DNA of 64,000 bases, taken from positions 17,083 through 81,082 of the forward strand of contig JAVXUO010002840.1 of NCBI GenBank assembly GCA_033065855.1, read 5' to 3'. The notes below the pieces were generated by a model that had not been told where the DNA came from, searched no databases, and saw only the letters and a list, made by a program, of their open reading frames with translations. This DNA is from Escallonia rubra (taxonomy: Eukaryota; Streptophyta; Magnoliopsida; Escalloniales; Escalloniaceae). Each line of letters starts with the position of its first letter. The first letter of the stretch is position 1. The position numbers were made by a program, and so were the translations under genes. Positions 2,223 to 20,143 of this stretch are shown here, piece after piece.

Positions 2223-2272
<50 letters not shown>
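2223..2272. repeat. (TA)n microsatellite, left flank of element E1
   Basis: About 25 uninterrupted TA units end directly at the GGGAGCTGATCCC terminus of E1. It is probably the insertion target, since E1 has TA repeats on both sides. Confidence 0.95.
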
Positions 2273-2274
<2 letters not shown>

Positions 2275-2870
2275 GAGCTGATCCCTTGACAGCGTAGGCA
2301 AAATAGGATGTCTTGCCAGCGCGATCTGGCAGTCCACGCGCGATCTGTGGACGGTCCAGATCTTTTTTTTTTTTTTTTTTAAGTTCGTCCGCTACATAAT
2401 GTAGCGGACGATTTTTTTGACAAAAATACCCTTGACAGAAAAATAGTGTATGTCCGATACATTATGTAGCGGACATCAATTCTTGGAACAAGCTATGTAC
2501 CAATTTTATTTGTCCGCTACATTATGTAAAAAAAGGGAATTCCTTTTACTTTATGGAAAAGAGAACCCGTATGTCAGATTTGAAAAAAGAAGGACACCCC
2601 TTTTATTTTCTCTCTCTTCCTCATCTCTCGTCCTCCTATCTTCTCCCTCTCCCTTGTACCCATTCTCTCTGTCATATTATGAAGATGGCAGATCTGTTGA
2701 GAGATTCACGTACCGTTGTTCATTAATTTTTTTCTCCAGATTTTGTTCTATTTTGATTGGACTTAGAGATTCACGTATGGTCAGATTTGTGATTTCTCTT
2801 GTGTCGAGGTTTGGGGGCGGCAAAGGGTCACATGGTGGTCGGGGGATGCGGAGGTTCGGATGGTGGTGGT

Positions 2871-3060
2871 GATGGGTTCAGCGGCGGTGGCAGAGTTTTG
2901 GTGGTTGTGGGTGATGGGTTCAGCGGCGGTGGTGGTTGTGGGTGATGGGTTCAGCGGCGGTGGTGGTGGTGATGGGTTCAGCGGCGGTGGTGGTGGTGAT
3001 GGGTTCAGCGGCGGTGGTGGTTGTGGGTGATGGGTTCAGCGGCGGCGGTGGTGGTGATGA
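2871..3060 (+). repeat. GGT-rich minisatellite in the core of E1
   Basis: Six copies of a 27-39-bp unit built on GATGGGTTCAGCGGCGG followed by GGT triplets. Related sequence occurs in the cores of E2 (about 13150-13250, opposite strand) and E3 (about 4840-4900, opposite strand), so it is a shared family module rather than local slippage alone. Confidence 0.85.
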
Positions 3061-3770
3061 ATTGTGTATTGTGCAAGGTTACTGGGTTGCATGGGATTGA
3101 TTGTATCTGATATGTTCTTAAATCCATCCTGCTCATTCATTTGTCTATGTTCCATCCGTTGTTGCATCATGAACCAAAGGTAGATTACCCCAGATTTTTG
3201 TCTCAGACGGTCAGTTTCCCCCTTCATGGTCATATCTCTATCTGGAAATGCACTCCTCTCCTTGGTTGAGTTTCGCAGCTCAGCTCTTGAAAAGGCTCAT
3301 TCCAAAATGCTTATCTTCTGGGCTCAAAGAGTATATTGAATCTGAGTATACTTTTTCGATCTAGATACTGACATGTCTTGCGATTATTGTGTATAATCCT
3401 TCAGCTTGCTTTGGTTGGTATGTGAATGGTGAAACCATGGTCGACTGCATATATTCTGCAGGTGTTCACTTTGAATTCTCACCCGAGCCGAATCCCAAGT
3501 ATTGTGGTTTAAACGGCCATTAGTTGTTTTAGATGGAAGGTTATTCGAGACGACATCACATTTCATGGTTGATCTTATAACCATTCTGTGTTTTCTCCGG
3601 TGATCTCATTTGCCCGTCATTTGCCCGTCATGGCTCGTATGTAAAGGAGATCTGTGATGGGTGGTGTCGTGTGTCGTTCACGGTCATCAGAATACAGAAG
3701 AGAGAGAAACCCATTTGAAAGTGAAATGAAAGTGTTTCTCTCGGCCTGAAATGAATGAAACCCATTTGCA

Positions 3771-3837
3771 GATATGCCATGTTTTATTTTATGTCCGCTA
3801 CATTATGTAGCGGACATAAAATAAAACATGGCATATC
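3771..3837. repeat. 67-bp perfect palindrome inside E1
   Basis: Two 33-bp arms surround one central T at 3804. The inner 25 bp is the family dyad. An 11-bp direct repeat (CCATTTGCAGA) overlaps both borders, at 3762-3772 and 3837-3847. The arms would form a strong cruciform or RNA hairpin. Confidence 0.9.
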
Positions 3838-4241
3838 CATTTGCAGAGTTTTGGTGGTTGTGAGAGAGAGAGAATGTAAGAAAACCCATCCGCTACATAA
3901 TGTAGCGGATGAGAGAAAGGACAGACCAAAAAGTCAGAGCATTAATGAGAGAAAGGGAAGAGAGAGAAAAAAAATGTCAGAAAACTATCCGCTACATAAT
4001 GTAGCGGATGGGCTGTTTTTAAGCTTGTTCCAAGAATTGCTGTCCGCTACATAATGTAGCGGACATACACTATTTTTCTGTCAAGGGTATTTTTGTCAAA
4101 AAAATCGTCCGCTACATTATGTAGCGGACGAACTTAAAAAAATCGTAAAAAAAAGATCTGGACCGTCCACAGATCGCGCGTGGACGGCCAGATCGCGCTG
4201 GCAAGATATCCTATTTTGCCTACGCTGTCAAGGGATCAGCT

Positions 4242-4244
<3 letters not shown>

Positions 4245-4293
<49 letters not shown>
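4245..4293. repeat. (TA)n tract shared by E1 and E3
   Basis: One uninterrupted TA tract of about 24 units lies between the right end of E1 and the left end of E3, so two elements abut the same microsatellite. Confidence 0.95.
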
Positions 4294-4295
<2 letters not shown>

Positions 4296-5355
4296 GAGTC
4301 GATCTCTGTCTACCGGTGGAGAAATAGCTATTTCTCCACCATCCATCTGGCCATCCACGCGTGAGAGTGGACGGTACAGATTGCTTTTTTTTTATTCTAA
4401 CTTTCCTGACCGCCACTCTTTGTAGCGGTTAGGAATTATGCCCAAAATGTCCCTCACGCGCTCCTCACGTTCTTCTCGCACACTTCATAACACAACAATA
4501 TATGTCTGAATGCCACAAAGTGTAGCGGTTAACCGTTACACTTTGTAGCGGTTAAGATGATCTTCTATGTTCTTTTGTCTCTGTTCCTTTGTGTATCCAG
4601 CCAACCACCACCGTGATAGACGGCCACCACCCAGCACACCAGCAACTCACCATGGCCAAACATCAAAGCCAAATAGTGTATTGGATCTAAAAAGGTTCCA
4701 TTAATTAATTGAAAAGATGAAAAAAAAATTGAAGATGAATTGGTAAAAAAACTTTAATAAAAAAAAAAAATGGGATCCCATCACAGTTTAAGCATCGGCC
4801 GAAATTTTCCCAATCAGTCGCAATACCACGGTCACAGTACACCCAGCATCGTCGACCATCAACGCCCACCACTGAACCCATAACCACCCCCCACCGAACC
4901 CAATCACAGCCACGGTACATCCACTTACCTCGTTGTGTTTATCGAAGCCAAACTCACCGAGATCTACACTAGATCTGAGTCAAAACCACCGAGATGATGG
5001 CGGTTTTGGCTCAAATCTCGAATGGACCTCGGTGATGGCGATGTAGACGCCGAGTTTTGTGTTTTTTTTTGTGGTAGGGATGGTGATGTTGGTGGATTTA
5101 GGGTTTATGACTTTGCGGTGGTACGGGTGATGGTGTTGGGGAAGGAGAGGAGCCTGATGAGAAGAGAGAGAAATTGGACCTGCTGAAGATGAGAGAAAGA
5201 GGGGGGGAGAGGGAGACCCGAATGAGTGATGAGAGTGATTGGGGGCATTTTTGGAAAAAAATGTTAACCGCTCCTCTTAGGGGCAGTTAAGCGAGTTACA
5301 AACAAAAAAAAGCAATATGTGCCGTCCACTCTCACACGTGGACGGCCAGATGGAT

Positions 5356-5358
<3 letters not shown>
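4294..5358. mobile_element. E3: diverged relative of E1/E2 between (TA)n tracts
   Basis: About 1,065 bp. The left end begins GGGAGTCGATCTC. The inner part of the left TIR (GTGAGAGTGGACGGTAC) is inverted at the right end near 5310-5345, but the outermost 50 bp or so of the right TIR is missing, so the right end is truncated. Dyad-like motifs with GTAGCGGTTA arms occur near 4405-4432 and 5270-5290. A near-palindrome of CAAAGTGTA type lies near 4516-4546. The core contains a CCACCGAACCCA-rich segment like that of E1 and E2. It has no transposase. Confidence 0.75.

Positions 5359-5388
<30 letters not shown>
5359..5388. repeat. (TA)n microsatellite, right flank of E3
   Basis: About 15 TA units lie directly after the truncated right end of E3 and before the PMD gene region. 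Confidence 0.95.
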
Positions 5389-5392
<4 letters not shown>

Positions 5393-5495
5393 CCAGCATG
5401 TGAACTTATACTTGCACATGCTAGCGTTGTATGTTTGCGAGCGTTTGATAAATGCTTCCAACCTTGCCGTTTTTCCATAATTTCAGTTGCAAAAA

Positions 5496-7765
5496 ATGGA
5501 TTTTAACCCTGGACCAGAAGATCCCTCCGTATTATACGACCAAGCAAACCATATCAGTACGCTCATATGGGATGGTGGAGTAAGATACTTATTTTATCAA
5601 CTTTCTTATTCTTACGAACGTTGTATACCGTTTTCTTTGCTTAAATTGTATTTATTAATTCGTAGGAAAGAGCACTTCTCAACACAGTAGAAGTATCCGA
5701 TAATTTCAAAGCTTGGAAATTGAACAAATACAAGAAAAGATTACTGCGTGTGATTGGATTTGAGATTTTCACGCATGGGCAGATCTTTCAACACCTTGAC
5801 CGACACTTAATATGTGCCCTTGTTGAAAGGTGGAGAAGTGAAATGAATACGTTTCACTTCTTTCTCGGGAAGATGACAATTACCCTAGAAGATGTAGGGT
5901 TCATCTTAGGGTTACCGGTGACGGGGCGGCCGGTAATTGCTCCTCCGTCGGAAGCAACAAATAAGAGAACTGTTAGGGACTTCTTTACTTCGACACCTGA
6001 GGATCAATTTAGCACTAGTGGTATAAAGTTGAAGTGGTCGCTAGATACCTACAAGGTTTTGCCGGAAAACTACACGGATGAGATGCTTGTGCTGTACACA
6101 CAGGCCTTCCTCTTGTGGGTGATGGGGGCAATTTTATTCCCAACGACGTCGAAGAACACGGTCAGCGTGAAATATTTACCGTTGTTGGGTAACCTGCGGG
6201 AGGTTGGGGATTATGCCTGGGGTGCAGCAACTCTTGCGTACCTGTACCGAGCATTGCACAAGGCAACGAGGCCCGACTCCAAAGCTATATGTGCATGTCT
6301 CTCGCTATTGCAGGTATATCATATAAATCTTGATTACGTGTTCGATTTTTTTTTGTTGAATCGACAATAAATTTTGACGATACTTTATATAATTTGTCTT
6401 TGTTCTCAGGTGTGGTCTTATGAACACCTTGCTACCGGCGCATCCAGGCGTAGGGAAGGAACCGATAACGTGTGGCCCCAGTTGTGCGCTTGGGAGTACA
6501 GCCGGAAGGAGAGCCACTACCCAAGGAGAGACGATCCCCATTACAACATTACGTACTATTGGGGGGAGCTCGACTCGCTATCGTTGGACCAGATGCGTTG
6601 GGCGCCGTACAAATGTTTGGCGCGACGGGTGGGAGAGTCGTTATTTTCACGCTCTCCGGGTTACAATGCACACCCCTGATCCACTTCGAGGTCACGGAGT
6701 GGCAACTGCCAGATCGCGCAATGGGCCATTTTGACTACCTGCAGGGGTTGCCAGCCGATGCCCCGAATATGACGGTTAACAGGAACCCACCGGGTGTCAG
6801 ACGATTTGGCAACGCGAACGCCGACGACTTGTGCACACGAGAAATTGAGGTTTGGAATTCCTAGCAGGACACGCTGGCTGCCATTGTGTCGGAGCCTGAC
6901 CTCGTGATCAACATTGAACAGTATCGTGAGTGGTACTACCACATCAACCGGAGGAGAATAGCCCCAGTAAGGTTTGAACGCGGGGGAGAAGTACCACCCT
7001 AAGGGTCAGATCGATGAACGTATGGCATGTGATCTGGTAAGTTGCCCAACAGGTGCTTTTAATTGAATTTTATGATTCTAAGTGTGTGTTTGAAGTTACT
7101 TATTTATTATCTGTTTGGATGTAGGTTAATGCCTCGCTCGCCTTCTTCCAGAAGTTGAGCGAGCGGAAGGATCTAGTGGATGCAATGGGCGAAGAGCTTC
7201 GCCAACAGACTGATGCGTTGACGTTTGGTTGCGGGAATTTTTTGAGCCAAGCATCGGGACACCCTTCGGGCGTCAGCCCGGGAATGGGTTATCCGGGGTG
7301 GCAGCCTCCTTATGTACATGAGGAATACGGTGATCCCTCGGGACAGGCTTCGGGTGTGAGCCAGGGAGTTGGTGGTCCTTCTGTAGCGGGAATGGGTGGT
7401 GATTGGGGACCGCCAAGCACTGTGGGATAGGCTCAAGCGCCGTGGGACGAGTACAGTGCACCCCCGTTCTCTTTGCTTCCGGACTCGGAACCCCTACCCC
7501 TCCCTCAGAGTCAAGTCACGCAAGACTGGGGTTTCAGAAACATCAGTCTCTCTGAGACACTGCCCATTGTCCCGTGGGCGGGACCATCTGGCACCCCCGG
7601 AGGGCAATATCCCCCGATTGACCCGACCGAAGGGTAATATCGCCAGGTTGACCCCCTCTGAAGGAAGGCAATATCCTCTGGTTGACCCCCGAGGACAATA
7701 TCGCAAAGGGAATACATTGAAGCCCCTAAAGTCGCATAAACGCCAACAAATATGAGATCGTTATT
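5496..7765 (+). pseudogene. Plant mobile domain (PMD, MAIN-like) gene, frameshifted
   Basis: Matches the PMD family (MAIN/MAIL1 and proteins annotated as 'serine/threonine phosphatase 7 long form homolog'). Exon 1 (5496-5579) opens with the typical NPGPEDPSVLY start. Exon 2 (5666-6313) carries the PMD core, including a GKMTITLEDVGFILGLPVTG stretch. Exon 3 starts at 6410 with VWSYEHLATG. All three junctions are GT-AG and keep frame. Near 6600-6650 the family-type sequence moves from one frame to another, continuing as FEVTEWQLPDRAMGHFDYLQG (core residues at about 6690-6750), so a frameshift is present. A probable intron at about 7036-7123 leads to a Gly/Pro/Ser-rich tail, followed by more in-frame stops. 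PMD proteins act in transcriptional silencing or as transposon cargo. The transposase downstream favours the transposon copy. Confidence 0.8.
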
Positions 7766-7800
7766 TTAGCGGGGCCTCCCGAGACAAAGCGTCATATAGT

Positions 7801-8480
7801 GTGGATCACCCAAATGGCATGGATTACTGTTGCTCGTGGGCAGAAATGGCCTCGCTGGCTCCGGGGGATTGGTTAGACAACGGTGTCATCTCGACCTACG
7901 TGGAGATTCTGAATCAAAGGCATCGGGAGCGGTTGAACGAGTATCGGCACGTTTTTATGGTGGATGTTTTTTTCATAGTCTCCTAGTATCTGACTGGCGT
8001 GAGTGGGTCGAGCTAAGGGGGAATAGAAAGTTGAGCCAGTGGAGACCGTCCGTTAACTTACGAGCGTATCTTACTAGGGATAGTCCAGTGAGCGCAAGAG
8101 TTGCCGATGTGTTTCTAATCCCATTTTTAAGGGAAAGCCACTGGTACTTGGTTTGCTATGGACCAACACATAAAATCGTATCAGTCATCGACAGTCTACA
8201 CGACGATACCATCATGATGCCTGTGTTGCGGATGTACAAAGCCCAGTTGGATGCTATGGTAATTTTACGATTGTTGTTTAATGGTTATTGTAACTTGCCA
8301 ATTGTAAATGTTAACTCATGTCTTACGCCGTTTTCTATTTCTCGCAAAATCTATTTTGTGCCATGGTCCACTCTATCCGTGATGTAAGAGTACCGGCGCG
8401 GCCAAAGCTCTAATTCTGACTGAAGAAAAGGAGGCCCAAGCAACATAATACTTTGGACTGCCAAAGCTCCATGATGTAAG
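7801..8480 (+). pseudogene. Ulp1-like C48 cysteine protease remnant
   Basis: Resembles the plant Ulp1/SENP protease domains found in transposons. An N-terminal part (LAPGDWLDNGVISTYVEIL, about 7852-7910) is followed by a frame change near 7975. The catalytic-His segment is visible as FLRESHWYLVCYG (about 8128-8160) and the Asp segment as VIDSLHDD (about 8190). A donor-like GT follows at about 8261. The Cys segment (usually DCGVFVM) is not seen. Only its downstream neighbour VHSIRDVRVPARPKL is found, near 8368-8413. The gene therefore lacks the nucleophile region and is broken. It may once have been fused to the PMD gene just upstream, because the gap is under 50 bp. Confidence 0.75.
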
Positions 8481-8611
8481 TGTTGGAGTTTAGGGAGTCT
8501 GTTGCGTCGTCTACTACACAGTGTAGCGGACGTTCATACTATTAAAATTTTTCTAAGTGTTAGAGTTTAGAGATTCTGATGCGCCGCCCGCTACACAATG
8601 TAACTGACATA
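8476..8611. repeat. 78-bp tandem duplication carrying GTAGCGG-type dyads
   Basis: Two diverged copies start with AAGTGTTGGAGTTTAG and AAGTGTTAGAGTTTAG. Each ends in a dyad: 8508-8532 (one arm GTGTAGCGGACG, the other with one change) and about 8587-8610 (CCCGCTACACAATGTAAC, more decayed). These resemble the 25-bp dyads of E1 and E2. They lie between the convergent Ulp1 and transposase remnants. Confidence 0.75.
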
Positions 8612-8788
8612 ACAGAACAAATAAAAAAAGTGAAATTTAGATTTGATGGCTCTCAAAGGATTATTAGAAAAAAACATTACATACAGGCTCTCAAAAGATA
8701 ATTAGAAAAAAAATTACAAAACAATTATTACAAAAGTCAAACATACTTGATGGTTTATGAAAGATTGTTACAAGAAAAAATCATTAGA

Positions 8789-10596
8789 CTAAAGGTCCAC
8801 TGTAGCTTCTTCTTCCTCATCTTTGGCGTCATCTTCTTCCTTGTCTTGGAAACCCCCTGGACTTATCCTCAGTGCCTTGTAATGGTTCCGCTTGTCATGG
8901 TCGGTCATTTTGTTGCACAATGCATACCTTCTCAACTTTTTAGGTTGAGTTGCTTGTTCAATAGAGCTCTTCATCCGCGTAGATCTCTTGCGGCCTTTCG
9001 TTTGCGATATAATTGGATCCAAAGGCCGGATATCATTGTCGTCTTCCTCCCCCGGCTCGTCATCTTCTGATCCCGTTGTAGGCTCAGTGTCATCCACCGC
9101 ATTGCTGACTGAAGCTACTTCCAAAGTCAGTATACGGGTGCTCCGGAAAGGCAATGGTACCGTGCAACCTGTTTGCACCTTTCATCCACCGTGGCAGGAC
9201 ATATTTATCGGTGATTGTCCTGATATTCTTCTGGGTGAAAAATCGTAGAATGTGTCTACACAGGATGCCATGGAACTCAAACTTCTTGCAAACACATGTC
9301 ACCGAGTTCGTCAATGTGTCATGGCTCACCGCATAAATATTGCGCAACTTCTCAAGGACGAGGTCATTCACTAGTGTATAAACCTTGTACTCACGCGTAG
9401 ACTTTTTTGCCACCTTGTTTATACTGTATCGTCCTAATTTTCACATCTTTACTTGGTATAGCATGAAGATCTCCTTCATATAGACTTTGGCACTGTTCAG
9501 CTCCAGCGGGGTCTCAAGCAACCTTCTCCTTTGTTTGTACGTGGTTGTAAAGTTTGCAGCCCTTTCCATCACTCATAACGAGGCAACCGCTTTTTGTGCG
9601 GATGTGACGAAACTCTTCAAATTGGTAGTTGTACCCACGTAACTATCGAACGTGGCATTCATAGATTCTTTCCCGTCATTTTCATGCCTGCAGAAAAATA
9701 CCTCCTCTTGTAAACGCCAATCCATTGCTCTTTGAGCTCGTACAAGTGCTGGAGCCACTCGTGGTTTTACAATGAGTAATCCTCAACAAGCTTTTCTCAC
9801 CTCTCCTTAAATTCCTCAATCGTTAACGAACTTGTTAACGCACTCGTCAAAAGCCTGTTTAAAGTCTGGATACTTTACATACACGTGATGCAGACGTTCA
9901 GGATATTTGTTGCTTATGTGCCAAGTGCACAAGTTATGTCGAGTATCTGGGAAGACGGTAGACATAGCCTTCTTCATTGACAAATCTTGATCGGTGATGA
10001 TAACTTTGGGTTCTTTGTTGTTCATGGCCTCCAGCCACGCCCTAAACAACCATACAAAAGAACCCGAACAGGATGGAGTGATAATGATGATTGACGCCCG
10101 TGAAAGGAGTGAACGACATCGAGTACTTGTTGGTACGGTATGTGGTGTTGAAAGTCACGACATCTCCAAAATTCTTATAAGCTAGCCTCGAACGACCGTC
10201 AACCCAAAAAATTATGCTAACTCGATGCTTGTCGTTAAGTTTATAATCGAAGGTAAACTGTGGGTCCTTCATCTGCATCTGCTTCAATAGGCTCATTGTG
10301 GATTGAGCATCATTAAGGTCATACGCGGCTCGTCTTTGGGTTCAGACCGCTTTACGAATGTCTGTCGTGTCAAAGTTTAAATTTTGAATTTTCCCAGTCT
10401 GTTCAGCAAGAACATTAACTATGTATGTAGGTCCTATTCGCGCATTGATCATTGTGTGAATTAGGCTCCTTGCGATCTTACCCATCTTCTTGTGTTTATG
10501 CATCTGACTCACCTTAGAAGGGGTTACTAACGGGTGATTGTGTGCCAGTTCCAGACTAGTAATAAGCCAATGATTGTGCGGAGAAAGAAGAAGCAC
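8789..10596 (-). pseudogene. FAR1/FRS-like Mutator transposase, broken
   Basis: In minus-strand order, family blocks are recognisable. The end of the FAR1 DNA-binding domain (LELAHNHPLVTPSK) comes first. The MULE transposase core follows, with FWVDGRSRLAYKNFGDVV, VTFNTTYRTNKY and GVNHHYHSILFGF, then KVIITDQDLSMKKAM and GKESMNATFDSYVG. A SWIM zinc finger follows (CVCKKFEFHGILCRHIL, about 9245-9300), and then an ISQTKGRKRSTRMKS tail with a decayed zinc knuckle. The normally catalytic Asp of FDTTYRTN is Asn here (FNTTYRTN). The blocks fall in several frames with stops between them, and the N-terminal WRKY-GCM1-type domain is missing. FAR1 family proteins are domesticated MULE transposases. The PMD/Ulp1 neighbours favour a transposon copy over a host FRS gene. 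Confidence 0.85.
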
Positions 10597-11035
10597 ATTG
10601 CTGAATATAAATTAATATGTCATTCTTTGACTACGTAGAAAATATTTTTTTTTTGTCAAAATTAAAACTTTTATATGTTAGTAAGGTAGTAACGCGTATA
10701 CCATATTATGCAGGGCCATGGCTGTCGTTTCAGGACAACAATTAGAAGATGTAGTGCAGAAGAAATAGAGTCTAGTTGTTTATTTACGCAATTTTTAGTG
10801 TTACTTATTTAAAAGTCTTTAGGTCTGATACGTAAATTAAAATAAAATTCTTTAGGTGCCGTAATGTTGTATCTACTTTTTTACCTTCGATCACATATCG
10901 CCTAAACAAATCTTCTACCACCTTTATAATAAATGAGTCGCATGTGGCGCCGCGGCTTGTAACTATGATGTGTTAATTTGAGTTCTCTTTCCCTGCACAC
11001 TCAACGTAACAGGTGCAGCAAAGACCCTAAAAAAC
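10597..11035 (+). other. BPG2 upstream region
   Basis: AT-rich sequence between the truncated transposase and the BPG2 start codon. It must hold the BPG2 promoter and 5' leader. A TTTATAATAA stretch near 10922-10931 is a possible TATA-like site, but I cannot place the transcription start. Confidence 0.4.
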
Positions 11036-12628
11036 ATGGCAGTTCTGTTATCTACTGCAATTCTGCCTTCAGCAACGACCACTCTCAACCTAAAGCTATC
11101 GAATCACATCGTTACTGAAGCAACGCAATCACCAACACTTCAGCTTTTCGCAGGTAAGTTCATTTTTCTCCTCCATTTTCCTTCACAGTTTTGAACTTTT
11201 CTCCTTTTAGTCAAAACCCACTTTCAGGCAGTACTGAATTTTCACAGGATTGAATAGGAAACCCAATAATAAATTCAACCAGAAAGTTTTGTATGTTGCT
11301 TCATCAGTAAAGGGTAGTCAATCAACAGCCCAGAAAACAAACAGGATTGAAGGAAGAATCCTAAGAAAAGTTCTTGGAAAACCTGTTCTTAGTGAGGGAA
11401 AAGATGAGGACAAGAATTACGGACCTATTTGTCCTGGTTGTGGGGTTTTTATGCAAGATAAGGACCCAAATCTTCCTGGGTATTATCAAGAAAAGAAGGT
11501 GGAGGTATCAGAAATGGAAGAGGGTGAGGAGGGTTTAGGGGTTGATGAGTTTGAAGAAGAAGAAGAGGGTTTTGTGGATGACATTGAGGGTAGATTTGAG
11601 GAAAATGATGGGGAAGAAGGTGAATTGGAAAACAAAGATGGGATTGTGTGGGATTCAGATGAATGGGATTCGGATTTTGAAGAAGACGATGATGATATAA
11701 AGGAGGATGAGGGATTTTATCCGGCAAGTGTCGGGTATGGGAACATTACAGAGGAGACGATACAAAAGGGGCAGAGGAAGAGGGTGTCGAAAGCGGAAAG
11801 GAAAAGGAGGGCTAGGGAGGCTCACAAAGAGAGAGAAGAGGTAACGGTTTGTGCCCGGTGTCATTCGCTGAGGAATTATGGGCAGGTGAAGAACCAGAGT
11901 GCTGAGAACTTGATACCTGATTTCGATTTTGATAGGCTGATCACTACCCGGTTGATGAAACCGACGGGGAAAGCTGATTCTACGGTTGTAGTTATGGTTG
12001 TTGATTGTGTCGATTTTGACGGATCATTTCCAAAAAGAGCAGCCAAATCTTTGTTCAAGGCAGTGGAAGATAGCAAAGATGGCAAGTTTAGTAAGAAGTT
12101 ACCAAAGCTTGTTCTTGTGGCTACAAAGGTTGATCTATTACCATCACAGATTTCTCCTACGAGGTTAGATAGATGGGTTAGGCATCGTGCTAAGGCTGTA
12201 GGGGCACCTAAGTTGAGTGGTGTTTATTTGGTCAGTTCCCGGAAGGATTTGGGTGTGAGAAATTTGCTAACCTTCATTAAGGATTTGGCTGGCCCTCGAG
12301 GCAATGTGTGGGTAATTGGGGCTCAGAATGCAGGTAAGTCTACACTGATCAATGCATTTGCTAAGAAAGAAGGTGTGAAAGTTACAAAGCTAACAGAAGC
12401 TGCAGTTCCTGGTACAACTCTTGGTATTTTGAGAATTGGAGGAGTACTATCTGCAAAGGCAAAAATGTATGACACCCCAGGACTCTTACATCCGTATCTG
12501 ATGTCTATGAGGTTAAATAGAGACGAGCAGAAGATGGTTGAAATACGGAAGGAGCTACGTCCTCGAACATATAGAATTAAGGTAATTTTTTTTTTGTTAT
12601 TGCCATTTGTAAGTTGGGACCAATTATA

Positions 12629-12708
<80 letters not shown>

Positions 12709-15700
12709 GAGCTGATCCCTTGACAGCGCTGGCAAAATAAGACATTTTGCCAGCGCGATCTGGCCGTCCACGCGCGATCTGTGGACGGTCCAGATCTTTT
12801 TTTTGCATTTTTTTAAAAATCGTCCGCTACATTATGTAGCGGACGATTTTTTTGACGAAATTGCCCTTCAACCCCCAATTGAGTGCCTTATATTATGTGA
12901 GTACAGTATCTATCCGCTACATAATGTAGCGGACGTGTCTTAGGAAAAAATCGACAGAGTCTGTAAAGGCAAACTTTGTTCTGTTTGTTATTTGTTTGTT
13001 CTATTACGTGCTCTTCTAGAAAAGGCAATGGAGTTCCACAAACTAAAATTCAAGTGCAAAATGCTTCTCAAAGGGATGAAGAAAATGTTCAAACAACCAT
13101 TCCCATTGCACTATCACAGCTATGTTGTTTCCGAGCCAACAAAAATTAAACTCAAATGAACCCACAACCACCACCATTTCGCCACCACCACTGAACCCAT
13201 CACCACCACCACCATCCGAACCTCTGCCTCCCCGAACCACCACCATTCAAACCTCCGCCATCCCAAACCTCTATGCAAGATAAATAACTAATCTAAACAG
13301 AGAGAGGTAGAGAGGAGATGAAGAATTAAGTCTCAAAATTCCAAATGGGTTTCAGTTGGAGAGCAACTCCAAAGAAAATAGGGTTGCCACAGCAGGTGGA
13401 TTGCTTCCTTCCTCTGTCGTCGCCGGAAGCGGAGCTGTCGTCGCCGGACGACGACTTTGGGTGATGCCGAGGCTACGGCGGCAGCGGTGATGGCGAGGCT
13501 ACGGCGGCGACGCCAAGGTTACAGATGCGATGCCAATGATGATAGCCGTCGTCGCCAGAAGCAAAGCTGTCGTCGCCGGAAGCAGAGCTGTCGTTGCCGG
13601 ACGACGACTTTGGGTGATGCCGAGGCTACGGCGGCAGCGGTGATGGCGAGGCTACGGCGGCGACGCCAAGGTTACAGATGCGATGCCAATGATGATAGCC
13701 GTCGTCGCCGGAAGCAGAGATGTCGTCGCCGGAAGCAGAGCTGTCGTCGCCGGAAGCAGAGCTGTCGTCGCCGGACAACGACTTTGGGTGATGCCGAGGC
13801 TACGGCGGCGGCGGTGATGCCGAGGCTACAGCGGCGACGCCAAGGCTACTGATGCGATGCCAATGATGATAGATCTGGGGATGAGGAGACGAAGGTGAAC
13901 AGAGAGGGAGAGAGAGAGAGAGAGTGGGTTTTTTTTTTCTAAAGAGAGAAAAGTGAGAAGTGAGAAGTGAGATTGAACGTGGGGGTGTGTTTCCAAAATA
14001 TTGTCCGCTACATAATGTAGCGGACAATATTTTGGGAAATATAACATATGGATATTGAAGGGCAATTTTGTCAAAAAAATCGTCCGCTACATAATGTAGC
14101 GGACGATTTTTAAAAAAATGCAAAAAAAAGATCTGGACCGTCCACAGATCGCGCATGGACGACCAGATCGCGCTGGCAAAATGTCTTATTTTGCCAGCGC
14201 TGTCAAGGGATCAGCTCCCTATATATATATATATATATATATTCGTTGATCTCCTGGAGTACTGATGATTGAGCATAAGCATGGCATGTGAAATTCATAA
14301 CACCTATTGCATGAAATATGCGAATAATGTACTGTCTCATTAAGTATTTCAAGTAATTTTTCAAACTTTTTTTATCCTCTCGTGAATCATTTTGATTGTA
14401 ATGCTTGCTTGTTGATTGGACACTCTGATTTGCCAATTGGTTAGTTTTTTAAGTTTTCTCAGAAATCCTTTCAGATGCTTGCTAGCACCAATATTACTAG
14501 CATATGATTCAGATGCTTGCTAGCACCAATGTTACTAGCATGTGATAGGAGAACTTGCTTCTGTGACGAGCAAAGTAGGAGTATGCATCATTCTAGAGTG
14601 ACCTTCGAGCATATTGCTTCTCTCCGATCGTAGGACTCTTTGGCTTTATTAGTATATAAATTACTGCCTGCCATGCGATACCTCGTATACCCCTCACCCC
14701 GCCCCGCCCCGCCCCGTCTCATTCAAGTCAACCCCATCCTATAATGCCCCATCCACACAAATCCCATGCGTTCACAAACTTCTGACTCATTACAACTGCT
14801 CGTGTTTTTGTGAGATGTATCGTCAAATTAACCAAATGAAAATATCTGTGGAAGTATCTAAACTATATATAGAAGAAGCAAGTGCCTCACGACGTCTAGT
14901 AAGAAGATCACCTGTCCATCCTATGACCTCCAATCACGAGAACCCTTTCCACCCTGACCAAATTTGTTCTGTTTGAGACAGGCAGGGTAGATAGCCAAGT
15001 GCACCATTCCTAGTTTTTTATCATGGACTTTACTTGATTATTCGAGCAACACAGTAATTCTTCTGTCTGTATCTAACATCTGATAAGTTCCTGGGCTCAC
15101 CTTTTGAACCTGCCTATATTACAGTGATACGTGCTGTACAAGGAATACCTCCAGTGCAGTTTGAACTTGTGTGTGTATTCTGATAAAAATCTGCTATCAG
15201 ATCTAATGTAGCATGTTGTACTTGCAGCAAGGTCATACCATACATGTTGGAGGCCTAATGAGACTAGACCTTAATCACGCTTCCGTGGATACAATTTATG
15301 TCACAGTTTGGGCATCGCCAAATGTTTCTCTACATCTGGGGAAGTTAGAAAATGCTGATGAGGTTTGGAGCAAGCATGCTGGTGATAGGTTGCAGGTAGA
15401 TTCCCTGTCTGAATGAGATATCTTACGTTATATGCGCGCGGACACACAGACACAGATACTAGTTAGGTAGCATGTGCGATGCACTTGTAAATGTGACCAC
15501 TTCAAAAGTATTTGTAAAAGAAGCTTAAACAATAGAACTTCAGAATATTCTCATTGAATCATCTGAATTTCTTCCTTTGCTATAAAGTGACGCCAATTAT
15601 AGCAAAGTATTGTGAAATTAATTACGTACGTGACACCAATTAAGTACGGTGAAATTAATTAAAACCCATGATAACATTAATTCAAGTATTGTGCTAAATA

Positions 15701-18700
15701 ATAGAATTTCTACTATCTTTATCCTTCTCGGTCTCTATCCTCTTCTTGGATATGCTTTTTATGATGGTTCCAGTTTTCTTGTCTTCAACATTTTTCTTCT
15801 TCTGAAAGTTCTTTGAGGCTCGTCATCATCGATGATTACTCAGGCTCTTTGGTTGCAACTGCTCCATGGTCTCTTTCTCTGTAACTGTTTTTATTAACTC
15901 TGCAAATGTATTACCTTCGTAACTATAGGAGACTTTCTGTAGTTTTATCAAAAACTTAAACTTTTATTCTGTGGATCCATCTTTCTTTCTGTAGTACGTG
16001 GATTCTTCCTTCTGCATTGAATTGCTAGCGTTAGGATAAAGTGCATAATATATGTAATAAAGAAGTTATGATTAAATAATAGTTGTTTTATGTACCTTAA
16101 TCCTTATAGACTCTTTGTATTCTTCAGTACTGCATCCAATCACCTTTATGGCTAGTTCATCAAAGATGACTGTAGCCCTATATAAGTCATCAACCACTTT
16201 GAGTCTAAAGTTGTACCCTCATATAATTACAAAAATGTTACTATGGTTGTTGTTGGTATAATTTGTCACTATTTATGTAGTATACTATCCTGGGGCTGTG
16301 TTTGATTTTGGCTTTTGGCGATATGTGCATTCAGTGTTGTCCTTATAGCTTACAAACGATTTTCGACAAAGTACACAAGCGTCATAGTTAAGTTGTCTTT
16401 TGTTTTCAACTTCCCAAATTATTGCTTCAAACCAGTTAAAAGTCGATTTATTTGTATATTAAGAGATTGTCATGTACAATTATGAATATGCATTACCAAT
16501 ATATTAATTCTGACTTACGTGCTCTAGAGATATACGTTGTACACAATTTCTCTCAACGCCACTTCTTTTGCTTCATTTATTTGTTTCTTCAAGAACGCGG
16601 AGTTAGTTGTTTTGTTGCCTTTTTCATCCTAACAACACGAACTGTTAGCATATAATACTATTTAAGGAATTTTTTTTGGATAATTAATGAGCATTAAAAG
16701 ATTTACACAATCGGTCGTCCGCAAAAAAAAAAAAAAAAATGAAGTCCTAGCAGTCCGCTTGTTGCAGGAGTGGGCTGCATGTAGGGGTATTTTGGGAAAA
16801 TGGATAGCCTATTGGTTGCGTGAGCAGGCTATGGAGAAGCAAAAAAGAGAAGTGTGATCTCAGTTGTCCGCAAAGCTAGAAAAATAGCGTTTTATGAATT
16901 GCTCGAAATAGATCTGCCCCCTATGTGTGGGTGTGTGTAGTAGATTGATATAATTAAGCTTTCATTTAGTAGCACTTCATGAGTTCATGTACCATCTGGC
17001 ATTTAAAGTATTAAAAACCCTATAATACACCATTTTGTCACTTTTTGGCAGTCAGCATATTAGAACAGCTCGTACAACTTCTTGAAAGAAGTTGTTTACC
17101 GTGGTTATCTTCATTTGATAACCATGGTTCTCACCTTTGACAGGAAGAAAATAATTGGATCTCTCTTTCAAGAAGTTTTCTAGAAAAGCGAGCATGTGTA
17201 ATTATGAGAGGGAGCTTAAAGAGTAGGGGTGTTTCTTCAATATGAAGGGAGAACACAGGTAAATAGGAGAAGCTTTGGAATTATGCTGCACAGTCCTTGT
17301 GTTGGCTCATGGTTAATTTTCGTCATTTGTTGGTTGAATTCCTTTTCTACACCCTTGAGTGTGCAAATTTTCAACACCGGCCCCTCCCCCCTCCCTCTTG
17401 TCTCGGGCCATGTTCTTTTTTCTATACAAGAACATACTCTTGAACTTTCTGGTGGAGATCGGAATGCTTGTTGTCCTAAAATTGTTCTTCCTGGGGCAAT
17501 TTTGACAACATACAATTAGAAGAGATATTATTTGTGTTATACAGGGTTACTTGTGTGACGCAGTGATGAGAGAATAGTCACACGAAAGGTACAACACGGT
17601 GTATTATTACCAGTCTGTTTCATTGGATAATATAGTGTTGGGCCAGTGCTATAACCAATGGAAGATTGTCTCACCACTTTACTCGACGAATGGTCATGAT
17701 ATCTTGTTATAAAAAATGTGGCGAATACTTCTCTTGAATCATCTTATAATTTTGTGGAATTTCCTGACAGTCTAGTAGCTTGTCTTTTATGCTTTTCTTC
17801 TCAGAAATGGGTACTAGTACGAGGAGCATAGTCATCAGTTAACTGGTTAAATGGGTTTTGGGTTGAATAATTTGGATGGATATAAGAATACTCATGGATG
17901 TTGTTAGAAGTGCATAGACTATAAGTAGGTATACTAGCATTTTACTTCAATTTACATGACAATGTATCAAGTAAAAGCTTCTATTAGATCCTGCTGCACC
18001 TTCTATTTGGATATCCCAACTTTATATCTCTATTACCTTAGATAAGCGTTCATCTCCATGTGACTCTCTATACCCCATGTTAAACTATCGTGAGAGTATC
18101 CATAGGATTTCAAATTAGTTTCGCGGCAGTATTTTAATTTAAGCCCCAATGCCAGCCCCAATCAAAAGTAAGAAAATAAGCGTCAAAAGATTATTAGGAT
18201 GTAGACCAAAGGTTCTCTAGTGATTTTTGACTGTAGTCCGGTTGCTGAGTCTCTTGCCAAACATATAATTGGCGGAGGTCTCAACTTCCCTATACTCGCT
18301 CCGACATTTTAGAGCATAAAGGGGATTTCAGTCTTCTGGTCCCAGGCCAGTTAAGTACTTGGCCTGATTCCGCTCTAGTTCTATCCTCCTTGATTTGGTT
18401 AAGTGGTGCCCTGTTCGACCGACCAGATACTTTGAAGGCCGAATCACTTGTTTGTTTTTTCTTTGCCTCATGCAAATGCAATCGATGCCACCTTTTCACC
18501 TTTTTGTTATGACAATAAGAAACATGCTCTAATGCTTGCATGTGTGCTTCATTTGTGAGCATCCACTTGAAGTCTCACCTGTTGATATCACTAATCAAGG
18601 TGCAACCCTATATTCATAATTAGGCTTCTCTTTTAAAATTATTGTGTTTTTAGCGGGTCAAAAGCGAAAATTGGCTACATCACCTGAGGAGTTTCCTTCA

Positions 18701-20143
18701 CATTAAATCCCTCTTGTTGTGTTTTGGATACTCATGGACATGATGTACGTGCATCCTTTCCTTCTGTATGCACTGGTTCCAGCCATAGCCTCTGTACCCC
18801 ATCAATACTACCTCCTTGCCTCCAACTGAGTGCTTATGGTCTTGGACCAGTGGGCTTGCATCCCAGCAATGCTGTCATGTCTTAATCAGTGCTGCCTGTT
18901 TCGTACTTCGCTTCAGTACGTGGTACAGCTACGCGCATGTGGTTCGTCATTTTGTGGTGCGCGGTATGCGATTATATGGTTCCCTTTGGCAGCAGATATA
19001 CGTTCTTATGAGCTATGCACTGATATATGTATATATCACTTTGCTTGCCAAGAAAGGTGAGGAACATAAGAGAGGGTTAGCATCAATAAAAATGGCTAGC
19101 TGACTTCATACTTAATTACCAGTTCAGAAAAATTGGGTATACACATTTTCGGTCCCCTAGATTTGGAGTACGAGTACTATCTTTCGGGTCAGGGGCACCA
19201 GTACCGGGAAAGCTAGGCTTTGAGGGGAATTAGGTAGCTCTGGTCTAAATGGATTAATACTCTAGCATGTAACCTTTGGATTTTGAAATTGATTGCTCCA
19301 AAGTGACGAGGACGTGGTTATCGGTTGGTCCTCAATGCATATCGACCTACTAACTAGCAGAGCTTAAAAGCTTATGAGCTTGGCAATAAGCTGGGTTGAG
19401 TGTAAAAAGAGATTTGACTTGTCTCCTGAGCTCGACCAATCTAGAACACTTCCAAATACCACCACAAGCTTCAACAGCCAAATATTATTTGCCAGAATCA
19501 GGTTTTGAGTGTTTGAGAAGCTGATTCTTTACCCTTGCATGTATTATGTTGGTAAACTTGAGGTTTTAGATCTATAATGATTCTTACTGGTAATTGATAA
19601 ATTGTTCATGCCTCTTATGTCTCCTTCTCTTTTGTTTCTCAAGCTTGTTTTTTACTACTGTGGTTATCATCTCCTTACTGAATGCGAGTTGTAGGATTCA
19701 GTTTTCATTTATACAATTTTCTGTAACTTAACTTTTGCGCAACCATATGACGTTACGCGTTCTTCAATATGTATGACCATTTTTTTCAGCCTCCCATTGG
19801 GGTGGACCGAGTTGCTGAATTGGGCAAATGGGAAGAGAGGGAAGTCAAAGTGTCTGGAACAAGCTGGGATGTGAACAGCGTCGACATAGCAGCAGCTGGC
19901 TTTGGTTGGTTGTCTGTGGGCTTAAAAGGTGAAGCAACCTTGACATTGTGGGCATTTGATGGCATTGAGATAACTTTGCGAGAACCTTTGGTTCTTGACC
20001 GAGCATCATTTCTTGAGAGACCTGGGTTTTGGCTACCAAAGGCTGTATCTGAAGCCATTGGCAAACAAAGTAAGCTTGAAGCTCAAATGAGGAAAAGCCT
20101 TGAAGACGAGGATGCATACTCCCTTACAGAAGCAGCTGCTTAA
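11036..20143 (+). CDS. BPG2: BPG2-type chloroplast GTPase (circularly permuted, YqeH/NOA1-like)
   Basis: Coding exons at 11036-11153, 11248-12581, 15228-15395 and 19790-20143 join in frame through GT-AG introns to 657 residues, close to the Arabidopsis BPG2 length. The N-terminus is Ser/Thr-rich and fits a plastid transit peptide. Two zinc-binding pairs are visible: CPGC (residues 101-104) and CARC (241-244), separated by a long acidic region and a basic stretch. The GTPase motifs are circularly permuted: G4 TKVD (332-335) and a G5-like VSSRKD precede G1 GAQNAGKS (397-404), G2 PGTT (427-430) and G3 DTPG (448-451). In Arabidopsis BPG2 acts in chloroplast rRNA processing and greening and affects brassinosteroid responses. 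Intron 2 (2.6 kb) contains transposable element E2, and intron 3 is 4.4 kb. The reading frame looks intact. A second BPG2-like paralogue is the main alternative. Confidence 0.93.
12631..12706. repeat. (TA)n microsatellite in BPG2 intron 2
   Basis: About 38 TA units start some 50 bp after the exon-2 donor and end at the left terminus of E2. Confidence 0.95.
12707..14219. mobile_element. E2: non-autonomous TIR element in (TA)n, inside BPG2 intron 2
   Basis: A 1,513-bp element with ends identical in type to E1 (GGGAGCTGATCCC, then a TTGACAGCG stretch) and TIRs of about 165 bp. (TA)n lies on both sides. The 25-bp dyad lies at 12821-12845 and 14081-14105, exactly 114 bp from each end. Other dyads lie at 12911-12935 (imperfect ends) and 14002-14026, the latter extended to a 43-bp palindrome (13993-14035). 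The core holds CCACCA-rich sequence shared with E1 and a GC-rich minisatellite. No transposase is present, so it must have been moved by proteins supplied in trans. Confidence 0.92.
13447..13850 (+). repeat. GC-rich 153-174-bp minisatellite in E2
   Basis: Three tandem units each begin near GACGACGACTTTGGGTGATG (13447, 13600, 13774; the third has one change). A nested 21-bp unit (GTCGTCGCCGGAAGCAGAGCT) accounts for the unit-length difference. The array is open in one frame for 131 codons (13457-13852), giving an Arg-rich repeat protein. I do not think this is a gene, since no family is recognisable and the frame is a by-product of repeat units divisible by three. Confidence 0.85.
14220..14242. 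repeat. (TA)n microsatellite, right flank of E2
   Basis: About 11 TA units follow the right end of E2 directly, completing the TA-flanked insertion. Confidence 0.95.
15396..19789 (+). other. BPG2 intron 3, no recognised insert
   Basis: A 4.4-kb intron with only short, unrecognised open frames on both strands. A poly-A run near 16723-16739 lies next to a GTCCGC-containing segment. It may contain old unrecognised transposon debris, but I saw no terminal repeats. Confidence 0.6.

Follow-up and report, generated by a model that had tools for sequence, protein, structure and literature searches.

MuTAnT elements of Medicago truncatula insert into TA microsatellites, show 9-bp target-site duplications (TSDs) in the minority lying outside TA, and comprise short non-autonomous copies, an autonomous mudrA-like partner (AutoMuTAnT) and terminal inverted repeats (TIRs) made of foldback modules (PMC4486113). 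The SaTar and AgS elements of guayule and rice, including rice Micron, are non-autonomous Mutator-like elements (MULEs) that are flanked by microsatellites or TSDs and form end-to-end arrays (PMC5907723), and the Ac-mMITEs of pineapple are (TA)n-associated miniature inverted-repeat transposable elements (MITEs), part of which have 9/10-bp TSDs (PMC8449440). In the VANDAL elements of Arabidopsis, a short motif recurs in the non-coding sequence that separates the element genes (PMC5735166, PMC10398659), and Muta1, a MULE of Aedes aegypti, has long TIRs whose tip is an imperfect palindrome, with motifs that repeat in the subterminal region (PMC5225508); here and below, these systems are described according to the accessible parts of the cited papers. 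In the present study, we analysed a 64,000-nucleotide stretch of Escallonia rubra DNA (positions 17083–81082 of contig JAVXUO010002840.1 in assembly GCA_033065855.1, C2864:17083–81082 in our numbering), hereafter the window, which carries three TA-flanked elements, E1, E2 and E3, with a symmetric 25-bp dyad (dyad C) some 113 bp inside their ends. An earlier note on the window had proposed a small transposon family with a functional dyad. On balance, the sequence comparisons incline us to the reading that E1, E2 and E3 come from a TA-inserting MULE lineage and that dyad C is a putative dimer-binding site for a protein encoded by its long relatives.

RESULTS

E1 (2273–4244, forward strand; 1972 bp) and E2 (12707–14219, forward strand; 1513 bp) are non-autonomous MULEs, and the window sequence agrees with the earlier note that each sits exactly between pure (TA)n tracts. 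A (TA)25 tract (2223–2272) lies to the left of E1, and tracts at 12631–12706 and 14220–14242 flank E2 on the left and right. The TIRs of E1 are about 222 bp long and 96% identical, those of E2 are 165 bp long and 98% identical, and the 5′ ends of the two elements share 89.5% identity across 162 bp. E3 (4294–5357, forward strand), likewise a non-autonomous MULE, represents a related class with a diverged tip and TIR; its 3′ end lacks the outer 45 bp, a (TA)n tract (5358–5388) lies to its right, and it is joined end to end with E1 via a shared (TA)n tract (4245–4293).

The perfect 25-bp dyads previously placed at 2386, 4106, 12821 and 14081 were all recovered, as the first dyads from the ends of E1 (2386–2410, depth 113 from the 5′ end; 4106–4130, depth 114 from the 3′ end) and of E2 (12821–12845 and 14081–14105, both at depth 114). 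At ≤3 mismatches, 11 window sites matched the dyad (0 in 100 shuffles), seven in E1 and four in E2, in line with the at least six and four copies counted before. The remaining copies in E1 are a second dyad on the 5′ side (2451–2475, 3 mismatches), three internal dyads (3792–3816, 3887–3911 and 3986–4010) and the second from the 3′ end (4041–4065), and those in E2 are the second dyads on the 5′ side (12911–12935) and from the 3′ end (14002–14026), the palindrome of the latter reaching 10 bp past the 23-bp core. The dyad at 3792–3816 is centred in a longer palindrome (within 3770–3840) that continues 22 bp past the core per side, with flanks unlike those of most other dyads, and a near copy of this palindrome is present at L019 5200. 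E3 has a dyad with other letters (GACCGC-N11-GCGGTT; 4407–4431) at depth 113. The diverged E3 dyad at a similar depth was thus borne out for the 5′ end, the only measurable one because of the missing outer 45 bp, and E3 itself ends at 5357 instead of 5358. Equal depth within the window was rejected as evidence. The ends of E1 and E2 are homologous TIRs, and this homology alone predicts equal depth, so that the fixed depth on which the earlier note had partly relied cannot support function by itself.

In the genome searched (566 Mb in 3222 contigs), the 12-bp tip had 3520 matches (1725 + 1795) compared to 11 for a backward control, and the exact dyad CGTCCGCTACATNATGTAGCGGACG was present at 1362 places compared to 0 for its backward control, which supports the claim of a transposon family with many copies. 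Among the tips, 2986 of 3520 come after six A/T bases, and 98 of the 100 listed from these follow exact (TA)3; TA-microsatellite targeting was therefore upheld, and the pattern set in advance as speaking against it, copies mostly outside TA, was not found. In the loci examined, 40 of 44 ends adjoin a TA tract, the other four being one at a GT tract, one at a CA tract and both ends of one insertion outside simple repeats. TSDs, which are unreadable inside (TA)n, were read at both insertions outside simple repeats for which both ends were read: the 9-bp TATATGATT at a 133-bp element (L017 3940–4072 = C80:61034–61166) and the 9-bp ATTAAACAA at a 9.6-kb element (C17:22231–31827, L064/L065). No TSD was found at L015, between a CA tract and a TA tract. 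The lineage thus inserts mostly into TA microsatellites, with 9-bp target duplications. The 133-bp element consists of little more than the tips and two dyads and resembles a natural minimal substrate. On the contigs listed, facing exact tips formed 31 pairs spanning 133 to 12351 bp, 16 of them at 1.1–1.9 kb and eight at 7.1–9.6 kb, though such pairs may combine ends from different elements.

A 1978-bp element on C1213, whose ends were read as 98 and 100% identical to the E1 query, also lies between TA tracts, and its flank beyond these tracts (L080, L081) matched nothing in the window. On C587, a 98% copy of the left flank of E1 stops at 19444. An E3-like element runs from 19371 (88% at this end) to 18023 (84% at that end), after which the right flank (93%) follows from 17884. 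Because only 72 bp separate the flank copy from the E3-like element, E1, with its 1972 bp, is judged from this alignment to be absent from the related locus, which may be an allele or a duplicate of the window locus; no E1-like end on C587 was among the 41 E1-end matches listed (40 of 1905 candidates scored).

The ends are ordered as the 12-bp tip, palindrome A (about 20–50), palindrome B (about 51–95), a T-rich tract and dyad C, which usually starts at 113–115, with more C dyads inward; the dyad is thus one among several palindromic modules per TIR. In the 5′ TIR of E1, alignment of ends places palindromes A and B at 2292–2322 and 2323–2362. Depth was assessed in a dyad-blind sample consisting of the first 20 listed tips outside the earlier loci (L058–L077), chosen without regard to dyads, 15 of which are directly preceded by exact (TA)3 (hand count). 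Nineteen of the 20 have a dyad within 300 bp, and the first dyad starts at 113–115 in 14 and at 109–119 in 17 (adding 116, 119 and 109 once each), the outliers being L059 (depth 48), L063 (166) and L062, which has only a half dyad at 49. In the earlier loci, 104 places matched the tip at ≤2 mismatches in 11. The 58 places without a dyad within 300 bp, none of them TA-flanked by a 10-of-12 test and one of them (L057:3933) a genuine tip truncated where the locus ends, were excluded, and two further tips whose dyad was explained by another tip were removed by hand. In the 44 ends that remained, the first dyad lies at 113–115 in 27 and at 28, 29, 47–49, 90–107, 112 or 178 in the rest. The depth of 178 belongs to L024:4130, whose E3-class dyad at 113 fell outside the search pattern; despite its other sequence, the E3-class dyad is at depth 113 in both E3 and L024. 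The standard deviation of the first depth was 9.0 in 11 TIR cluster representatives, compared to 15.9 for the spacing to the second dyad in the 10 having one; the clusters, formed greedily, are not fully independent, the two E2 ends falling into different ones. The earlier expectation of a dyad at 110–116 bp therefore held for most dyad-blind ends and for E3-type ends, whereas a strictly fixed position did not (28–29, 47–49, 90–107 and 166 also occur), and the dyad characteristic of both ends is also repeated inside the elements. Depth that varies freely, the other pattern set in advance as contrary evidence, was not seen, given the 17 of 20 dyad-blind ends at 109–119.

A variant dyad with both arms changed (GTCCGCCA..TGGCGGAC; CCA..TGG) is present at 637 genome places, and at the 22 sites listed (contigs to C131) its depth was 113 in 15, 111 in one and 226 in two, the other four having no exact tip within 300 bp. 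In many ends (L008, L009, L058, L065, L068, L070, L071; C70, C116), C dyads lie near 113, 168 and 226 bp, the third dyad thus being about twice as deep as the first. Half dyads cut at or near the centre were seen in L062 and, directly by a TA tract, in L007 around 4035, as if the dyad centre underwent breakage or TA expansion.

For the alignment, 54 ends were pooled: those whose first dyad starts at 85–120 bp, 17 from the dyad-blind sample and two of the E3 class. Retaining only ends with less than 88% mutual identity left 29, of which 28 were aligned, L015:3079, which has no palindrome A, being left out. Between the 11 TIR clusters, which come from the 44 ends above, mean identity was 0.86 in the tip and 0.80 in the dyad, compared to 0.48–0.69 in four other stretches before the dyad, 0.59 and 0.50 behind it, and 0.46 after shuffling. 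The dyad thus appears better kept than the adjoining sequence between TIR groups, clearly so in the 11 clusters and less so in the dyad-blind ends. In the three palindromes of the 28 aligned ends, 85.9% of cells were paired, compared to 29–37% when slid, cells changed on both sides numbered 53 compared to 24.2 in shuffles (0 of 500), and the covariation score was 0.161 compared to 0.106 (0 of 500). The palindrome stops ≤2 bp past the 23-bp core in 168 of 201 distinct flanks, and 261 of 268 exact half-sites are partnered, leaving seven orphans (about 2.6 expected by chance). A mobile palindrome inserting by itself was not adopted as an explanation, since the flanks are not direct repeats, nor was a general palindrome-growing process, since most palindromes stop just past the core, though longer ones exceed shuffles. 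The FHY3/FAR1 site CACGCGC, present in only 5 of the 28 ends, was not adopted as a conserved TIR site.

A Pfam MULE search of the genome (150 of 3309 candidates scored) revealed long uninterrupted transposase frames in many relatives. From it, 30 loci were cut out with ≤1.5 kb per side, 19 of which bear the dyad at ≤2 mismatches (0 in 100 shuffles). L051 has more diverged dyads, and ten (L026–L029, L031–L036) have no dyad within the stretch examined; the latter contain frames of up to 777 aa. When listings for contigs up to C125 were compared by eye, 8 of 17 MULE places had an exact tip within 10 kb and nine did not; the eight comprise seven 783-aa frames and one 577-aa frame.

A complete 9-kb MULE relative of the window elements is present on C2418 (123775–132776; 9.0 kb). 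Each of its ends has a TA tract and resembles those of E1. Aligned in inverted orientation, the two ends are 95.6% identical across 274 columns, some 32 of which are TA, and the 3′ tip of the element reads GGGAGTTGATCCCTTGA. Its transposase is an uninterrupted 782-aa frame with MULE (PF10551, E 1.5e-33) and FAR1 (PF03101, E 3.9e-13) domains. A B3-domain gene is also present, and the opposite strand encodes a plant mobile domain (PMD) and a C48 (Ulp1-type) domain. A Pfam scan of five proteins of this one element matched FAR1, MULE, B3, PMD and C48, with one protein remaining without a match; DUF1985, the domain of VANC-type proteins, was not matched. The B3, FAR1 and PMD matches point to a plant. 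None of the 23 dyads of the element falls within its three gene spans, which make up 68% of its length; the dyads are located on both sides of the B3 gene and, far inside the element, around the Ulp1/PMD genes. A second copy, L022 on C85, encodes a 783-aa transposase 97% identical to that of C2418. Near-identical B3 sequences (88–91 of 91 aa) are present at C17, C85 and C53, though next to the C53 copy the element end shares no more than 70% identity with that of C2418. With 1–6 differences in 273 bases, the ratio of nonsynonymous to synonymous substitution rates (dN/dS) of B3 was uninformative, and linkage of the E3 class to B3 could not be shown in L024. Rather than a separate family of small transposons, as previously thought, the small elements of the E1, E2 and E3 types are satellites of long MULEs. 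The 5′ outer bases of the C2418 element repeat, in inverted orientation, the flank on the other side of the TA tract. Together, these bases and the flank form a 54-bp perfect palindrome centred on this tract (123732–123785; L055 with L045), which suggests template switching over (TA)n.

Between E3 and E2, the window contains a decayed, reverse-oriented relative of the 9-kb element (5389–10578), with PMD and Ulp1-like remnants on the forward strand and transposase remnants on the reverse strand; neither inverted-repeat ends nor B3 were detected in it. A long open frame directly before E2 (11238–12629) resembles an exon of a host gene, presumably a GTPase exon. Because this frame ends at a splice-like site, E2 probably sits within a host-gene intron. 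GC-rich tandem repeats inside E1 (2810–3060) and E2 (13410–13860) are seemingly unrelated to each other and possibly represent captured sequence.

DISCUSSION

The C2418 element, which shares these ends and carries a MULE transposase, and the 9-bp TSDs of two insertions, within the 8–11 bp range and at the typical length of 9 bp, place the window elements in the MULE superfamily. The (TA)n flanks of most copies assign them to the TA-targeting type represented by MuTAnT, SaTar and Micron, and the TIRs of inverted-repeat modules to the foldback MULEs, though the evidence for compensation is mixed. They do not belong to the MuTAnT family proper: read directly against its TIR mask GGGGTTTGCTAGAACA, the tip here is GGGAGCTGATCC (PMC4486113). 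AutoMuTAnT is 4.9 kb long with one five-exon open reading frame, whereas the relative found here is 9.0 kb long with transposase, B3, PMD and Ulp1-like genes, and the accessible text on MuTAnT does not describe a dyad at a set depth (PMC4486113). As far as the description goes, the end-to-end arrangement of E1-(TA)n-E3 resembles the arrays of SaTar/AgS-MULEs, and the accessible text on these elements does not contain the term 'palindrom' (PMC5907723). The authors of the Ac-mMITE study reported no autonomous partner (PMC8449440), whereas the present elements have a long relative with the same ends. Muta1 satellites share mostly TIRs, as here, but the repeats of Muta1 are 12-bp tandem units, not 25-bp dyads, and TA targeting is not described in the accessible text (PMC5225508). 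VANC21 motifs form same-orientation arrays, in contrast to the symmetric dyads described here (PMC5735166, PMC10398659). Furthermore, none of the five C2418-element proteins matched the VANC-type Pfam family, and the repeated non-coding motif is only analogous to that of the VANDAL system. Earlier papers already describe TA-targeting MULEs, with duplications of 9 bp, autonomous partners, TIRs of the foldback kind and arrays joined end to end (PMC4486113, PMC5907723, PMC8449440), and also PMD in MULEs (PMC5418596). Neither a symmetric dyad at a set depth and repeated between genes nor a B3 gene in a TA-targeting MULE was found in the literature searched, which excluded most subscription papers. 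The TA-targeting MULE type is thus already known, whereas the dyad architecture and the B3 gene look new.

Dyad C has the features of a dimer-binding site, because it is a symmetric site of set size with recurring core letters and paired half-sites, appears conserved above its neighbours and lies outside genes. FHY3/FAR1 proteins have been reported to bind DNA as dimers (PMC6000157), and the C2418 transposase has a DNA-binding domain of the same type, which we count for the dimer reading. Considering these results, we propose the following scenario. The FAR1-domain transposase or the B3-domain protein of the element, the two candidate binders, would bind the first C dyad within an end complex, and the additional dyads between element genes would have the part that VANC sites play in VANDAL MULEs, marking or activating the element. 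The depth peak at 113 bp favours the role in the end complex, the inner dyad arrays surrounding the B3 and Ulp1/PMD genes favour the VANC-like role, and both may hold. That dyad C is bound by a protein, which one it is and what binding does are points that we infer, as the earlier note did in suggesting the transposase or an accessory protein.

Several results weigh against this scenario. Of 35 listed sites with the exact E1-type dyad (contigs to C131), just 14 are within 300 bp of an exact tip, and no more than five of these 14 lie at depth 114–115, which limits the fixed-depth claim; the exact E1-type dyad is common as a second, internal or short-MITE copy. Depth varies, with 28–49 bp in short MITEs, 90–107 in several groups and 166 in L063, and part of the common depth reflects common descent, the TIRs being alignable. 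The comparison of 11 clusters used dyad-bearing ends picked by consensus, and in the dyad-blind ends the contrast in identity was weaker (dyad 0.72, palindrome A 0.67, palindrome B 0.65, T tract 0.56, behind the dyad 0.53). The two counts least affected by relatedness stayed within shuffles, pairs with a double change numbering 13 compared to 10.0 (49 of 500) and pair types 40 compared to 37.7 (95 of 500). Because two of the five measures thus lie within shuffles, compensatory change in the palindromes is suggested but not proven. In 119 distinct dyads, arm matching was clearly above independence at only two inner positions (71 compared to 53.9 and 71 compared to 55.9), and the palindrome extends ≥3 bp past the core in 33 of 201 flanks (16%) compared to 5.5% after shuffling. 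Moreover, the FHY3/FAR1 site CACGCGC differs from the dyad (PMC6000157), a transposase that simply binds ends needs no internal dyads far from them, and the present evidence fits the transposase and the B3 protein equally as the putative binder.

The two roles may also be considered separately. It is possible, though we would not lean on it, that the transposase has its core site at the first dyad and that the geometry of a paired-end complex keeps this dyad near 113 bp, the inner dyads being extras or decoys. The peak at 113–115 in diverged TIRs and in the E3 class, the tighter first depth than second spacing (9.0 compared to 15.9) and the retention of dyads in a MITE of merely 133 bp agree with this, but short MITEs with dyads at 28–49 evidently moved, and dyads also surround the B3 and Ulp1/PMD genes deep within the 9-kb element. 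To much the same tentative degree, the dyads may be an address for an accessory protein, B3 or PMD/Ulp1, that lifts silencing or drives element genes in a VANC-like manner through an unrelated protein. The exclusion of all 23 C2418 dyads from gene spans, their position on either side of the B3 gene and the near-identical B3 sequences at three loci, even with the diverged end at C53, are consistent with such an address. Furthermore, VANC proteins bind short repeated motifs in non-coding VANDAL regions (PMC5735166, PMC10398659), and capture of PMD by MULEs has been proposed to counter silencing (PMC5418596). However, the B3 sequences differ too little to test for selection, and the decayed window copy has no detectable B3.

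Both of these possibilities assume a specific partner, whereas the palindromes might instead be structural, as hairpins or cruciforms of a foldback MULE or as arms homogenised by template switching, an explanation that we regard as somewhat doubtful. It would account for three successive, highly paired palindromes per TIR, for dyads set in longer palindromes with differing flanks (such as the 22-bp extension at 3793) and for extensions of ≥3 bp being three times commoner than in shuffles, and MuTAnT has been described as a foldback of modules (PMC4486113). However, most palindromes end within 2 bp of the core, and a purely structural need would not keep the same recurring core sequence. Common descent alone, with a single ancestor for all ends and a dyad devoid of function, seems improbable to us. 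The ends are alignable across most of the TIR, E1 and E2 are close in the window (89.5%), and the dyad-blind conservation contrast is modest, but in the T tract and behind the dyad identity has fallen to near the shuffled level while that of the dyad has not (in the 11 clusters, more weakly in the dyad-blind ends), and the E3 class retains depth 113 although its dyad has other letters.

To our knowledge, how TA-targeting MULEs have their ends recognised and how they escape silencing is an open question. The genome analysed here offers an abundant family, a minimal satellite of 133 bp and a candidate site that occurs in natural variants, and the two candidate binders are of expressible size. 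This makes end recognition and anti-silencing in such MULEs directly testable. A more far-reaching idea, which we consider unlikely but worth stating, is that this MULE lineage captured a B3 domain and uses it with a palindromic address code. With one and the same dyad at a set distance in both ends and between all genes of the element, a single element protein would mark autonomous and satellite copies alike for de-silencing and transposition. If true, self-recognition would work here much as with VANC but through an unrelated plant DNA-binding fold that is recognisable as such, and the E1 and E3 classes would represent diverging specificities.

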